Source of the DNA: Streptomyces sp. S465
GTDB lineage: Bacteria; Actinomycetota; Actinomycetes; Streptomycetales; Streptomycetaceae
Length of the DNA stretch: 64,000 nt
Reading direction: 5' to 3'
Assembly (NCBI RefSeq): GCF_026898115.1
Contig: NZ_CP114036.1
Location: 4,954,001-5,018,000 of the forward strand
This document shows positions 41,718-45,870 of this stretch, piece after piece. Position 1 is the stretch's first letter; each line of letters begins with the position of its first letter. Under the pieces are notes generated by a model. That model was not told the origin of the DNA. It searched no databases and worked only from the letters and a program-made list of their open reading frames with translations. A program made the position numbers and the translations under genes.

Positions 41718-43793
41718 TTACAGACAGTCCCGGGGCAGCGTCTCGTTCCAGCTGCGGGAGAACACCCGCCGGTCGCCCTCGTAGCCGTCCAGCGTGGCGT
41801 CGATGAAGAACTCGGTCTCGCTGGACCGCAGCACCGTGCTCGTCACCACCCGCGTCTCCCAGTCGTCGCGGTGGAAGCGCATGGTCCAGGTGGACTCGCC
41901 GCCCACCGAGGTGAAGTCGTCCGCGACGGCGGTGTAGCGCTCGTAGGCCCGGCGGCCGACGTCCAGCCCGATGTCCTCGAAGCGCTGGGTGCCCGCGTCC
42001 TTGACGATCTCCAGCTCGGACCGGTAGCCGACCAGGTCGCGCTTGACGTCCCAGCGTTCCTCGGGAGGCGTGAGCCGGGTGGTGGCGATGGGGGCCGCGC
42101 CCTCGGGTTCGCCGAACGGACGCTGGGGCCCGTCCTCGCCCGACGGCGCCCGGCGCAGCGGCAGGGTGAGGGTGCTGGCGCCCTCGTACACGCTCAGCAG
42201 GACCGGCCTGGGCGGGGGCCAGGCGAGCGGCCAGTACGACGTGGACAGCGACAGCCGGATGCGGTGGCCGGGCGGGAACGCCTGCGCCACGCCGTTGAGG
42301 TGCACGCGGGCGCGGTAGCGCCGGCCGGGCTCCAGGGGTTCGGGGGTGCCGATGGACTCGCGGTGGGTGAGGTTGAGCAGCCCGTAGGTGACGCGGGTGG
42401 CGCGGCCGTCCGGAGCCACGTCGGACAGCCGGGCGGCGACCATGGCCACCGGTTCGCTGACCGACAGTTCCAGTTCGACGGAGGGGGAACCGAGGATCTC
42501 CACCCGCTCGGTGAGCGGTTCGGTGTCGAACACCAGTGAGCCGCCGTCCTCCTCCCGCTGGTCGTACGGCAGGTCCGGAGGCGCGTTGTAGGAGGCCCAC
42601 TTGCCGGCGAACTGGCCCACGGACAGCGGGGACTGAACGGTCAGCGCCGTGCCGTCCGGGTCCTGTTGCCGTTCCTGTTGCTGTTTCTGTTCCCGTTCCC
42701 GTTCGTCAGGTGTGGCACCGGCGGCTCCGATGCGGTGGCGCGTGAGCGGGTGCGCGACCGGCTCGACGTTCGGGGAGGGCCACTGGGGCTCGTCCACCCA
42801 GCGGCCGGGCCGTTCCTCGTAGGCGGTGGAGGGCGGCACGCTGTCCTGCATCCAGGTCCGCAACATGGGCCCGTCCATGACGCCGTTGTCCACGCCCTTC
42901 AGCCAGTGGTCCCACCAGCGCACCACCTCCTGGAGATAGCCGATGGCGGGGCCGGGCTCGCCCAGGTGCGGGTACTTGTGCGACCAGGGGCCGATCAGGC
43001 CCTTGCGCGGCACGTCCAGATGGCTGAGCAGCCGGGTCACGGCGTTGGAATAGCCGTCCGCCCAGCCGCTGGAGGCCAGCACCGGGCACCGTACGGCCTG
43101 GTAGTCCTCGCACACCGAGGCGTGCCGCCAGTAGTCGTCGCGGCGCTGGTGGCGCAGCCACTCCAGCACCCAGGGGCGGGCGTTCTCCAGCCGTTCCCGC
43201 CACATCTCGCGCCAGCGCTCACCGACCACCGCCGGGTCCGGCGGGCAGGTGGCGTACGCGAACATCGTGCCCGCCTCGGCGAGGTTGTCCGACAGCAGCG
43301 CACCGCCCATGTAGTGCATGTCATCGGCGTACCGGTCGTCGGTGAACGAGGCGATCACGATGGCCCGCAGGGACGGCGGCCGCCGGGCCGCCACCTGGAG
43401 GGCGGCGAAGGCGCCCCAGGAGATGCCCATCATGCCGGTGGTGCCGTCACACCACGGCTGCTCGGCGAGCCACGCCAGGATCTCCTCGGCGTCGCTCTGC
43501 TCCCCCTCCAGGTATTCGTCCGTCAGCACGCCCTCCGACTCGCCGGTACCGCGCAGATCGACGCGGACGCAGGCGTAGCCGTGGCCGGCGATGTACGGGT
43601 GGTGGATGGAGTCGCGTACGGCGGTCAGATCGCGTTTGCGGTACGGGATGTACTCCAGCACCGCCGGCACCGGCTCCTCGTCCGAGGACGTGGGACGCCA
43701 GATGCGGGCCGACAGGCGAACGCCGTCGGACATGGTGATCGTGACGTTTTCCTCTTCCTTCGTCGCACATGGCAGATTGCTCACGAGGCGCAT
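41718..43793 (-). CDS. CocE/NonD-type serine hydrolase (X-Pro dipeptidyl-peptidase family)
   Basis: 691 aa from the ATG at 43793 (AAGGAG 12 nt upstream, slightly long). Alpha/beta hydrolase about 15-330: VRVDLRGTGESEG, nucleophile elbow GISWGAF (Ser125), and the His region GPWSHKYPH. A Gln/Glu/Arg-rich inserted linker (EREREQKQQQERQQ) near 395 precedes the C-terminal jelly-roll domain (XPP-C). It cleaves acyl or peptide ester/amide bonds; substrate unknown. No signal peptide. It is the second gene after an ATP-grasp enzyme, and its leader contains an 8-bp repeat array. Confidence 0.9.
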   Translation of the reverse strand: MRLVSNLPCATKEEENVTITMSDGVRLSARIWRPTSSDEEPVPAVLEYIPYRKRDLTAVRDSIHHPYIAGHGYACVRVDLRGTGESEGVLTDEYLEGEQSDAEEILAWLAEQPWCDGTTGMMGISWGAFAALQVAARRPPSLRAIVIASFTDDRYADDMHYMGGALLSDNLAEAGTMFAYATCPPDPAVVGERWREMWRERLENARPWVLEWLRHQRRDDYWRHASVCEDYQAVRCPVLASSGWADGYSNAVTRLLSHLDVPRKGLIGPWSHKYPHLGEPGPAIGYLQEVVRWWDHWLKGVDNGVMDGPMLRTWMQDSVPPSTAYEERPGRWVDEPQWPSPNVEPVAHPLTRHRIGAAGATPDEREREQKQQQERQQDPDGTALTVQSPLSVGQFAGKWASYNAPPDLPYDQREEDGGSLVFDTEPLTERVEILGSPSVELELSVSEPVAMVAARLSDVAPDGRATRVTYGLLNLTHRESIGTPEPLEPGRRYRARVHLNGVAQAFPPGHRIRLSLSTSYWPLAWPPPRPVLLSVYEGASTLTLPLRRAPSGEDGPQRPFGEPEGAAPIATTRLTPPEERWDVKRDLVGYRSELEIVKDAGTQRFEDIGLDVGRRAYERYTAVADDFTSVGGESTWTMRFHRDDWETRVVTSTVLRSSETEFFIDATLDGYEGDRRVFSRSWNETLPRDCL

Positions 43794-43811
43794 AGGGCCG
43801 ACATGCTCCTT

Positions 43812-43923
43812 CCTGGCGTCCTGGCGTCCTGGCGTCCTGGCGTCCTGGCGTCCTGGCGTCCTGGCGTCCTGGCGTCCTGGCGTCCTGGCGTCCTGGCGTC
43901 CTGGCGTCCTGGCGTCCTGGCGA
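43812..43923 (-). repeat. 8-bp tandem repeat (~14 copies) in the hydrolase leader
   Basis: Thirteen perfect copies of CCTGGCGT (plus strand) and one ending in A. The array abuts the ribosome-binding site of the CocE-type gene and fills half of the 206-bp gap after the ATP-grasp stop. No other array in the window is as pure. Confidence 0.97.
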
Positions 43924-43999
43924 CTTTTCTTGCGAGACGGGTGGCACGGGTGCCCCCGGACGCCACTGGCACACCACCCGCGCCCGGGGCGACCGAGGC

Positions 44000-45319
44000 T
44001 CAGCCGACCTGCCTCTCCGTCTCCTCCAGGCCGCCGTCGGGGGCGGTGGCGTCGAAGAGGCGGTTCAGGGCGGCGACACAGCGGTCGTACTTCTCGCGCA
44101 GGTCCGCCTCGCTGTCCCCGCCGGTGAAGATGTGGGCCAGTTCGAAGCTGTAGCTGTCCTGCTGCGCCATCTGCGACAGCCGCTGTCCCTCCTCGGGCAC
44201 CACCTCGATCCGTACGCCCGGGATCTCCCGCTCGATGCGCTCGATCTCCTCCTCGACGGGGGTGTCGTGGACCACTCCGTCGGCGAACCACCGGTAGTAC
44301 CACTTGGCGGCCATGTCGTAGGGGCCGGCGCGGTGCGGCAGGGCCGGGTCCTCGCCGAAAGCCAGGCTGAGCATGCAGTGGTGGTTGGGCACCCCGTCCA
44401 CGTAGGCGAAGAGTTCGGCGTGCGACTGGGAGTGCCGGGGGTTGATCTCCAGCAGATTGATCTCGTCCGTGCCCGGGTCGTAGAAGTACTCGATGCTGAA
44501 CGTCGCCCCGTCCATGCCGATCTGCCGCATGACCCGCCGGGAGACGTCGTGCAGCCGCCGGATCACCGGCTCGGGCAGCGTGGAGGGGTACTGGTGGCGC
44601 AGAAAGCACGGGCTGTCGGGGTAGTCGATGGAGTCCAGCACGCCGTAGACGGTGACCTCGCCGTGGTGGACGTATCCCTCCACGGCGACCTGCACTCCGC
44701 TCAGCGCCTCCTCCGCGAGACACACCTGCCCGCCCACGCCCTCCATCTCGGGCGGGAGGTCCAGCCGTTCGAGGATGGCGTCGAACGGCCTGCCCACGCG
44801 GCCGATACCGTTGCGGATCTCGGCGACCGCCGCCCGGAACTCCTCCTCGTCCTTGACGGAGAAGGCCAGCTCCGAGGAGTACGCCAGGGCCGGCTTGAGC
44901 CACATCGGAAACCGGACGCCCTCCGGCGGCCGCGGGTCCCGCGCCTCCAGATCGACCCGGCCGAACCGCGGATGCTCATCGATCACCTTCCGCTGCTCCA
45001 GCCGACTCCAGTACTTGTGCTCGCACTTGACCACCGACTCCAGGCTCGTGCTGCGCGTGCCGTAGCGCTCGCTCAGAATCGGCACGAGCGTGCTCACCGG
45101 GAAGTCCCAGTAGCCGACGATGGCGTCGACGCTGCCCTCGAAGGCATCCAGAACACCCTCCGCCTTCGCGATGAGATCCGCCACGGAGACCTCGCCGCCC
45201 TGTAGATCCTCGACCGTGAGCAGGCGATGGAACCGGTACCGGTGGGCACCGGGGCCGCTCTCCAGGATGGGCACATTGGCCTCGTCCAGACCGATCACAA
45301 AGATGTTCTGCTCGTCCAC
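44000..45319 (-). CDS. ATP-grasp ligase
   Basis: 439 aa from a GTG with GGGAGGGA upstream. The N-terminal region (1-100) starts NIFVIGLDEANVPILES. The ATP-grasp core has MWLKPALAYSSELAFSV (ATP-binding Lys), VAVEGYVHHGEVTVYGVLDS and the metal site FSIEYFYDPGTDEINLLEIN followed by PRHSQSH. Related to carboxylate-amine ligases of the biotin carboxylase/D-Ala ligase superfamily, many of which make amide bonds in unusual dipeptides or cofactors. Paired with a CocE-type hydrolase; the substrate is unknown. A sigma-B-type promoter match lies 39-62 bp upstream. Confidence 0.87.
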   Translation of the reverse strand: MDEQNIFVIGLDEANVPILESGPGAHRYRFHRLLTVEDLQGGEVSVADLIAKAEGVLDAFEGSVDAIVGYWDFPVSTLVPILSERYGTRSTSLESVVKCEHKYWSRLEQRKVIDEHPRFGRVDLEARDPRPPEGVRFPMWLKPALAYSSELAFSVKDEEEFRAAVAEIRNGIGRVGRPFDAILERLDLPPEMEGVGGQVCLAEEALSGVQVAVEGYVHHGEVTVYGVLDSIDYPDSPCFLRHQYPSTLPEPVIRRLHDVSRRVMRQIGMDGATFSIEYFYDPGTDEINLLEINPRHSQSHAELFAYVDGVPNHHCMLSLAFGEDPALPHRAGPYDMAAKWYYRWFADGVVHDTPVEEEIERIEREIPGVRIEVVPEEGQRLSQMAQQDSYSFELAHIFTGGDSEADLREKYDRCVAALNRLFDATAPDGGLEETERQVG

Positions 45320-45357
45320 GGAGTCCCTCCCTGCGCTGACACTTTCCGGCGCTCTGG

Positions 45358-45381
45358 GTACCCCTCAGCGGGCCGTCAATC
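45358..45381 (-). promoter_or_regulatory. Sigma-B-type promoter match for the ATP-grasp operon
   Basis: On the minus strand GATT-N14-GGGTAC (45378-45381 and 45358-45363), matching the Streptomyces sigma-B consensus GNNT-N14-16-GGGTAC/T. GGAT with a 15-bp spacer also fits. The -10 lies about 39 bp before the GTG. Confidence 0.55.
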
Positions 45382-45432
45382 CCCGGTGCGACCTCGAGTT
45401 CAAACTGTTCAAACCGCTTGGGGCGGTGCCCT

Positions 45433-45456
45433 GTTTAAGTCCGGGATCTCGGGTAC
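45433..45456 (+). promoter_or_regulatory. Sigma-B-type promoter match for the KGG-repeat gene
   Basis: GTTT (45433-45436), 14-bp spacer, GGGTAC (45451-45456): an exact match to GNNT-N14-16-GGGTAC. It is 48 bp before the ATG of a stress-type protein. Confidence 0.65.
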
Positions 45457-45504
45457 CCGCTGCCCCGGACAGCATGAAACTCCGCGAATGAGGAGGAATC
45501 AGTG

Positions 45505-45870
45505 ATGGCTGACAATCCCGGCAACTTCGCCAACGACCCGCAGCGCGCTTCGGAGGCCGGCCAGCGGGGTGGCCACGAGAGTGGTGGCAACTTCGCGAAT
45601 GACCGGCAGCGGGCTTCGGAGGCCGGTCAGCGGGGCGGTCACGAGAGTGGTGGCAACTTCGCGAATGACCCGCAGCGGGCTTCGGAGGCCGGCCAGCGGG
45701 GCGGTCACGAGAGTGGTGGCAACTTCGCGAACGACCCGCAGCGGGCTTCGGAAGCTGGCCAGAAGGGCGGCCACGAAAGCGGTGGCAACTTCGCCAACGA
45801 CCCGCAGCGCGCCTCGGAGGCCGGCCAGAAGGGCGGCCGTGAGAGCGGACGCGGCCAGGGCGGTGGCTGA
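45505..45870 (+). CDS. KGG-repeat (stress-induced) hydrophilic protein
   Basis: 121 aa from the ATG at 45505 with AGGAGG 8 nt upstream (a GTG at 45502 is also open). It is made almost wholly of five 22-residue repeats beginning GNFANDPQRASEAGQRGG, then HESG; the last two have K for R. This is the KGG/GsiB/ConGG motif of highly hydrophilic stress proteins, thought to protect against desiccation or osmotic stress. The promoter match fits general-stress control. Confidence 0.94.
   Translation: MADNPGNFANDPQRASEAGQRGGHESGGNFANDRQRASEAGQRGGHESGGNFANDPQRASEAGQRGGHESGGNFANDPQRASEAGQKGGHESGGNFANDPQRASEAGQKGGRESGRGQGGG
45520..45846 (+). repeat. 66-bp tandem repeats in the KGG gene
   Basis: Five 66-bp units, the middle three nearly identical at the DNA level. 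In frame; copy number is likely to vary among strains. Confidence 0.9.

Follow-up and report, generated by a model that had tools for sequence, protein, structure and literature searches.

The 8-bp array that lies between an ATP-grasp gene and a CocE-type hydrolase gene in the window (the whole stretch of 64,000 nucleotides analysed here, from Streptomyces sp. S465) is best explained as a slippage-born VNTR in a tolerant intercistronic spacer, representing at most a weak graded modulator; we give this reading a probability of about 0.7. At this site the window's genome (G000) harbors 14 copies of the unit and a second genome, marked as the same species (G360), harbors six.

According to TRF, the array consists of 14.0 perfect copies with period 8 (100% matches, 0% indels) and is thus a tandem array of one unit, as a VNTR should be. 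On the gene (-) strand the unit is CGCCAGGA, repeated 14 times; on the + strand it reads TCCTGGCG. An initial annotation of the sequence had described 13 perfect units plus a near-perfect one, which is the array in another phase (13 CCTGGCGT and one CCTGGCGA at 43812-43923), and had the repeat touching the AAGGAG of the hydrolase gene; indeed, the lowest base of the array, 43811, doubles as the first A of the AAGGAG on the minus strand (43811-43806). The latter sits 12 nt before the hydrolase ATG, and the array lies 17 nt upstream of the same codon, in the spacer between the two same-strand genes. When 100 random 64-kb sequences were drawn from a first-order Markov model with the dinucleotide make-up of the window, period-8 arrays reached 2.6 copies at most, which excludes a chance origin. 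Moreover, a three-copy probe had its sole match in the 9.66-Mb genome at this array, which is not the distribution of a genome-wide regulatory repeat of the TAACTGA type. The sequence CCTGG, the Dcm/EcoRII motif and thus a possible methylation site, was also seen.

The gene setting proposed beforehand was recovered by domain searches (PF13535 for the ATP-grasp protein; PF02129/PF08530 and TIGR00976 for the hydrolase), the hydrolase query for the Pfam and TIGR searches beginning at 43784, three codons inside the start (Table 1). As also proposed, the array is not part of the coding sequence, falling outside the hydrolase ORF, just upstream of the Shine-Dalgarno (SD) sequence. A scan of positions 43600-45550 that was specific to sigma-70-like promoters retrieved none (0.2 expected), and the same interval yielded no terminator-like sites either (0.4 expected). 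The divergent upstream gene (45502-45870) codes for a KGG-repeat (stress-induced) protein (PF10685) and contains 66-bp repeats that are 90% alike, in about 4.9 copies.

Table 1. Features of the hydrolase locus, in positions of the window.
Feature	Position	Strand	Basis or remark
CocE/NonD (peptidase S15) hydrolase gene, 691 aa, start ATGCGC	41718..43793	-	PF02129, PF08530, TIGR00976
Intercistronic spacer, 206 nt, containing the array	43794..43999	-	Longest of 27 measured (13 to 206 nt)
Shine-Dalgarno AAGGAG preceding the hydrolase ATG, sharing its first A with the end of the array	43806..43811	-	Sequence
8-bp array, 14 perfect units	43811..43922	-	TRF; 6 copies at the equivalent site of G360
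Spacer part upstream of the array, with a predicted GC-rich hairpin of its own	43923..43999	-	MFE -35.6 kcal/mol
ATP-grasp gene, 439 aa, upstream of the hydrolase gene and in the same direction	44000..45319	-	PF13535

Counting the repeat in a second genome revealed that the copy number is not constant. The species sample comprises two genomes, G000 and G360, and their arrays at the same site differ by exactly eight units (-64 bp in G360), that is, by a whole-unit difference within the species. Apart from the array, the two spacers differ by one base, and all 20 units across the two alleles are identical. The mean identity of the two genomes is 98.2% (708 of 799 1-kb fragments), which makes the change in array length a recent one. 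A tract of this length had been called prone to slippage, and its length does change between the two genomes. The hydrolase is intact in both, with 691 aa in G000 and 682 aa in G360, the two proteins being distinguished by a gap of nine residues together with a few substitutions. The copy numbers were read from assemblies only and tandem repeats are often mis-assembled, so an artefact of assembly has to be considered; however, both genomes are near-complete and have the array, the locus sits far inside contigs of chromosome size (9.6 and 10.0 Mb), and at 112 bp the array is shorter than common read lengths. We therefore regard an artefactual copy number as highly improbable.

We then compared the array with others in the two genomes, by surveying 1.2 Mb around the locus in each of them for pure arrays (period 5-40, at least three copies, at least 24 bp). 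All 37 arrays of G000 were placed in G360, and 32 of them differ in length, a share that is inflated by ascertainment, the arrays having been picked as long in one genome; 21 of these differ by whole units, and the remaining 11 may include nearby indels. Starting from G360, 31 out of 33 arrays were placed in G000, with 28 differing in length (23 by whole units). At unselected 40-bp sites, 905 of which were placed out of 1000, the length differs in 55, and even with the ascertainment the excess of the arrays over these sites is still large. Pure arrays are, thus, generally hypervariable in this genome. One point that weighs against the VNTR reading is that the array is a length outlier, since it has the top copy number among the 37, only two of which reach seven copies. 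The other one with at least seven copies is a pure 6-bp array of TGGCAG (L197, C1 5462349 of G000) with 9.7 copies, which is 21 bp shorter in G360. A pure 16-bp array of GGCAGGCCGTCTCGTG with 5.7 copies (L144, C1 4603051 of G000) is 64 bp shorter in G360.

As regards the unit itself, its tandem occurrence was checked in 199 genomes together with that of a backwards control unit, for which no role is expected: the real one was found in one genome (its own, G360 being outside this sample) and the control in two. Since the control is at least as common, convergent slippage is enough to explain the unit elsewhere, and we rejected the idea that the unit is special and spreads through some mechanism. 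In the genome G091, the backwards control gave six overlapping matches, a pattern compatible with eight pure tandem copies of the reversed unit. Among the genomes of 84,980 species, the unit was retrieved at 3.5 copies or more from 14 loci, in runs of 3 to 11 copies, and none of these 14 is titled Streptomyces, although this set may lack entries close to the window's genome. One of them, in a Saccharopolyspora rhizosphaerae contig (L041, run from 6323), carries 11 pure CGCCAGGA copies at an unrelated place. In a Planctomycetota MAG, TTTTA precedes both a 3-copy run of the unit (L042, at about 1876) and another short run close to it, and TTTTA plus three copies recur on another contig of this MAG (L045); these may perhaps belong to a dispersed repeat family.

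The relatives of the locus were searched for in a genus sample of 392 genomes, 83 of which possess an ATP-grasp homologue at E <= 1e-60. The spacer was read in 70 of these 83 (30 + 40 loci), placing the hydrolase start by tblastn. The hydrolase lies downstream of the spacer in all 70 loci, and one of AGGA, GGAG and GAGG occurs at most 25 nt from its start in 69 of them. Pure arrays of period 4-20, with at least 2.9 copies and at least 18 bp, lying at most 220 nt upstream, were present in three out of 70 loci (G000, G360, and G030); outside G000 and G360, no CGCCAGGA array was found among the loci read. The third locus (L018), from another species of the genus, harbors an independent 8-bp array, CAGCCGCC, with 4.8 copies in the equivalent spacer. 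This may indicate a recurrent role, which would speak against the VNTR reading, or no more than a tolerant site. The nearest other species read (G384, G055, G096, G372, and G045, with 85-92% identity at the protein level) are devoid of the array and retain CCAGGGAAGGAGC at the array/SD junction. Next to the SD, the sequence in the nearest other species is ...CCAGGGAAGGAG or ...CGCCAGGGAAGGAG, so that the last unit, taken together with the SD, resembles the older sequence. The length of the spacer, measured in the 27 loci out of 30 matching the start motif, ranges from 13 to 206 nt.

In principle, the following scenario can be depicted for the VNTR. The unit probably derived from the SD-adjacent sequence, and replication slippage would have created the array and altered its length, possibly helped by hairpins in the repeat strands. 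As DNA, the + strand of the array is predicted to fold unusually well (z of -4.8, no shuffle out of 200 as good) and the - strand less so (z of -1.7, 10 out of 200), and such folding may aid slippage. Units would be gained and lost upstream of the SD, leaving the SD, its distance from the ATG, and the frame intact; as a change at that place cannot modify the frame or the SD-ATG spacing, it would be tolerated. The spacer length, in turn, seems to be little constrained. Slippage as the agent, the near-neutrality of the change, and the SD-adjacent origin are what we infer. The exact abutment of the array on the SD is a further point against the VNTR reading.

A different role had been assigned to the repeat in the initial annotation, according to which the copy number could tune access to the ribosome-binding site (RBS) through mRNA folding. 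An unstructured array RNA was ruled out, since the RNA is predicted to fold. The predicted energy is about -45.4 to -45.7 kcal/mol for 14 units (z -3.6, as good in 1 of 200 dinucleotide shuffles) and about -16.2 to -16.4 kcal/mol for six (z -1.5, as good in 19 of 200), the free energy of the array scaling with the copy number by roughly 3.7 kcal/mol per unit. That the predicted 14-unit fold of the mRNA strand beats 199 of the 200 shuffles is another point against the VNTR reading. Nevertheless, the predicted access is nearly flat: the unpaired probability is 0.49 at six copies and 0.53 at 14 for the SD, and 0.30 and 0.40, respectively, for the start codon, and from eight copies upwards only a slight odd/even alternation appears. 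With 200 nt of extra upstream sequence, SD and start access were equal at six and 14 copies (0.33 and 0.35), and with a short leader they were 0.41 vs. 0.40 and 0.15 vs. 0.14 (6 vs. 14 copies). The array folds on its own, and for this reason access to the SD and the start hardly depends on the copy number. Across 60 permuted units, SD access changed on average by 0.02 (maximum 0.24) between six and 14 copies; the change being small there too, flat access is not special to the real unit. These data do not support the proposed mechanism within the folding model, and a tuning of RBS access by folding was rejected for the 6- and 14-copy alleles.

A softer version would be a graded tuning, in which the copy number shifts the hydrolase mRNA level or its translation by degree, either through the intercistronic distance, through a growing hairpin that shields the transcript from nucleases or exposes it to them, or through weak docking of ribosomes at the AGGA of each unit. 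Since hairpin strength scales with the copy number, a route through mRNA stability is possible; the predicted free energy moves steadily from -16.4 kcal/mol (six units) to -45.7 kcal/mol (14 units), the longer fold being the one with a z of -3.6. In addition, each unit would form a weak duplex with the anti-SD (-4.0 kcal/mol, vs. -12.1 for the real SD), presuming the anti-SD letters we used to be correct. On the other hand, SD and start access are predicted to be nearly equal in the two alleles, the 6-unit fold is not unusual, and the array is not conserved beyond the species. Even with its precedents in M. tuberculosis fpg1 (PMC2734929) and M. catarrhalis uspA2 (PMC7302503), as far as the available text of these papers goes, graded tuning appears rather unlikely. 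Less likely still is its more specific form, in which the self-folding array would represent a length-adjustable intercistronic hairpin that determines the lifetime of the hydrolase portion of the transcript, or of the upstream ligase portion. If this were true, the hairpin would provide a graded, heritable, and reversible tuning of protein ratios in an operon, with the frame and the RBS untouched.

The array might also act as a coding sequence, being translated as DARTPGRQ repeats from an upstream start and fused in frame to the hydrolase at some copy numbers. The unit is stop-free in every frame and, in the 14-copy allele, the open hydrolase frame extends 1182 nt upstream. Yet with 14 copies there is no in-frame start codon in the spacer, and with six copies there are three in-frame GTGs, none of which follows an AGGAG-like site (14 nt inspected for each); the ATGCGC start and the SD are kept in relatives without the array. 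No plausible start was found, and a frame-dependent N-terminal extension is scarcely credible.

The main proposal of the initial annotation was a dedicated contingency locus, in which fast and reversible slippage would switch the state of the hydrolase within a clone and separate its output from that of the ligase. A pure tract of 14 copies that varies from strain to strain is what such a locus would look like. Nevertheless, the array is outside the coding frame, the SD-to-ATG distance is constant, no folding switch is predicted, and in the interval scanned there is no sigma-70-like promoter for the array to respace; a unit change alters neither the frame nor, limited to this promoter type, the promoter spacing. 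Furthermore, the nearest other species do without the array, and variation is shared by most pure arrays of the region. The closest published layout, the 8-bp tract of M. catarrhalis gor, showed no within-strain variation in fragment analysis, according to the available part of the text (PMC7302503). An ON/OFF contingency is, thus, not supported, and we consider it very unlikely. More generally, a repeat that varies in length, as 32 of the 37 pure arrays do, is not to be taken for a contingency switch on that ground alone.

The array has uses of its own. It is a clean polymorphic repeat, useful as a strain marker, and the chromosome around it carries many hypervariable pure arrays. The natural 6- and 14-unit alleles with near-identical flanks constitute a ready test of expression tuning by intercistronic repeat length in an actinomycete, an effect claimed for M. 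tuberculosis fpg1. Arrays of this kind had been called rarely reported in Streptomyces. A literature search over titles and abstract starts, in a collection short of most subscription journals, retrieved neither a phase-variable or expression-tuning array nor a variable leader repeat in this genus, which is weak evidence of absence; the 8-bp arrays as such are not unique to the locus, as G030 and the backwards unit (2 out of 199 genomes) indicate.

Four published systems, known to us from the available parts of the respective papers, resemble the array to different extents. The TAACTGA heptamers of Beggiatoaceae and Cyanobacteria are likewise short direct repeats just upstream of starts, with unit-step indels between related strains (PMC4679880). 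However, 169 sets of them are spread over one genome, which suggests a trans-acting binder, whereas the unit studied here occurs in tandem at one place of its genome, as judged with the three-copy probe. The gor tract of M. catarrhalis shares with our array the 8-bp unit, the position a few tens of bp upstream, and the wide range of copies between strains: its unit GACTGTTT lies 25 bp upstream and has from 2 to 17 copies (6, 17, 4, 2, and 3 in the strains reported). Unlike the array, the gor unit is AT-rich, belongs to an unrelated organism and, in the available text, is not described as abutting an SD between genes in the same direction (PMC7302503).

The other two systems involve measured expression. 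The AGAT tract of M. catarrhalis uspA2 is similarly short, pure, non-coding, and strain-variable, and lies in the leader of its gene, as ours may do (PMC7302503, PMC4679880), and the number of AGAT units goes with the uspA2 mRNA level (PMC7302503); it differs in its 4-bp unit, in lying 132 bp upstream, in having a measured transcript effect, and in preceding the gene of a surface protein under host selection (PMC7302503, PMC4679880). The rnc-fpg1 spacer of M. tuberculosis is, like ours, an actinobacterial same-strand spacer expanded by repeats in one lineage and polymorphic in length between isolates; it is a few bases long in most other lineages, and its repeats end at the start codon. Longer intergenic repeats correspond there to higher fpg1 mRNA, with a modest rise with length. 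It is unlike the pure octamer in its 37-bp and other units and in that its expression was measured (PMC2734929). By analogy with fpg1 and uspA2, a weak graded modulation by the array is possible.
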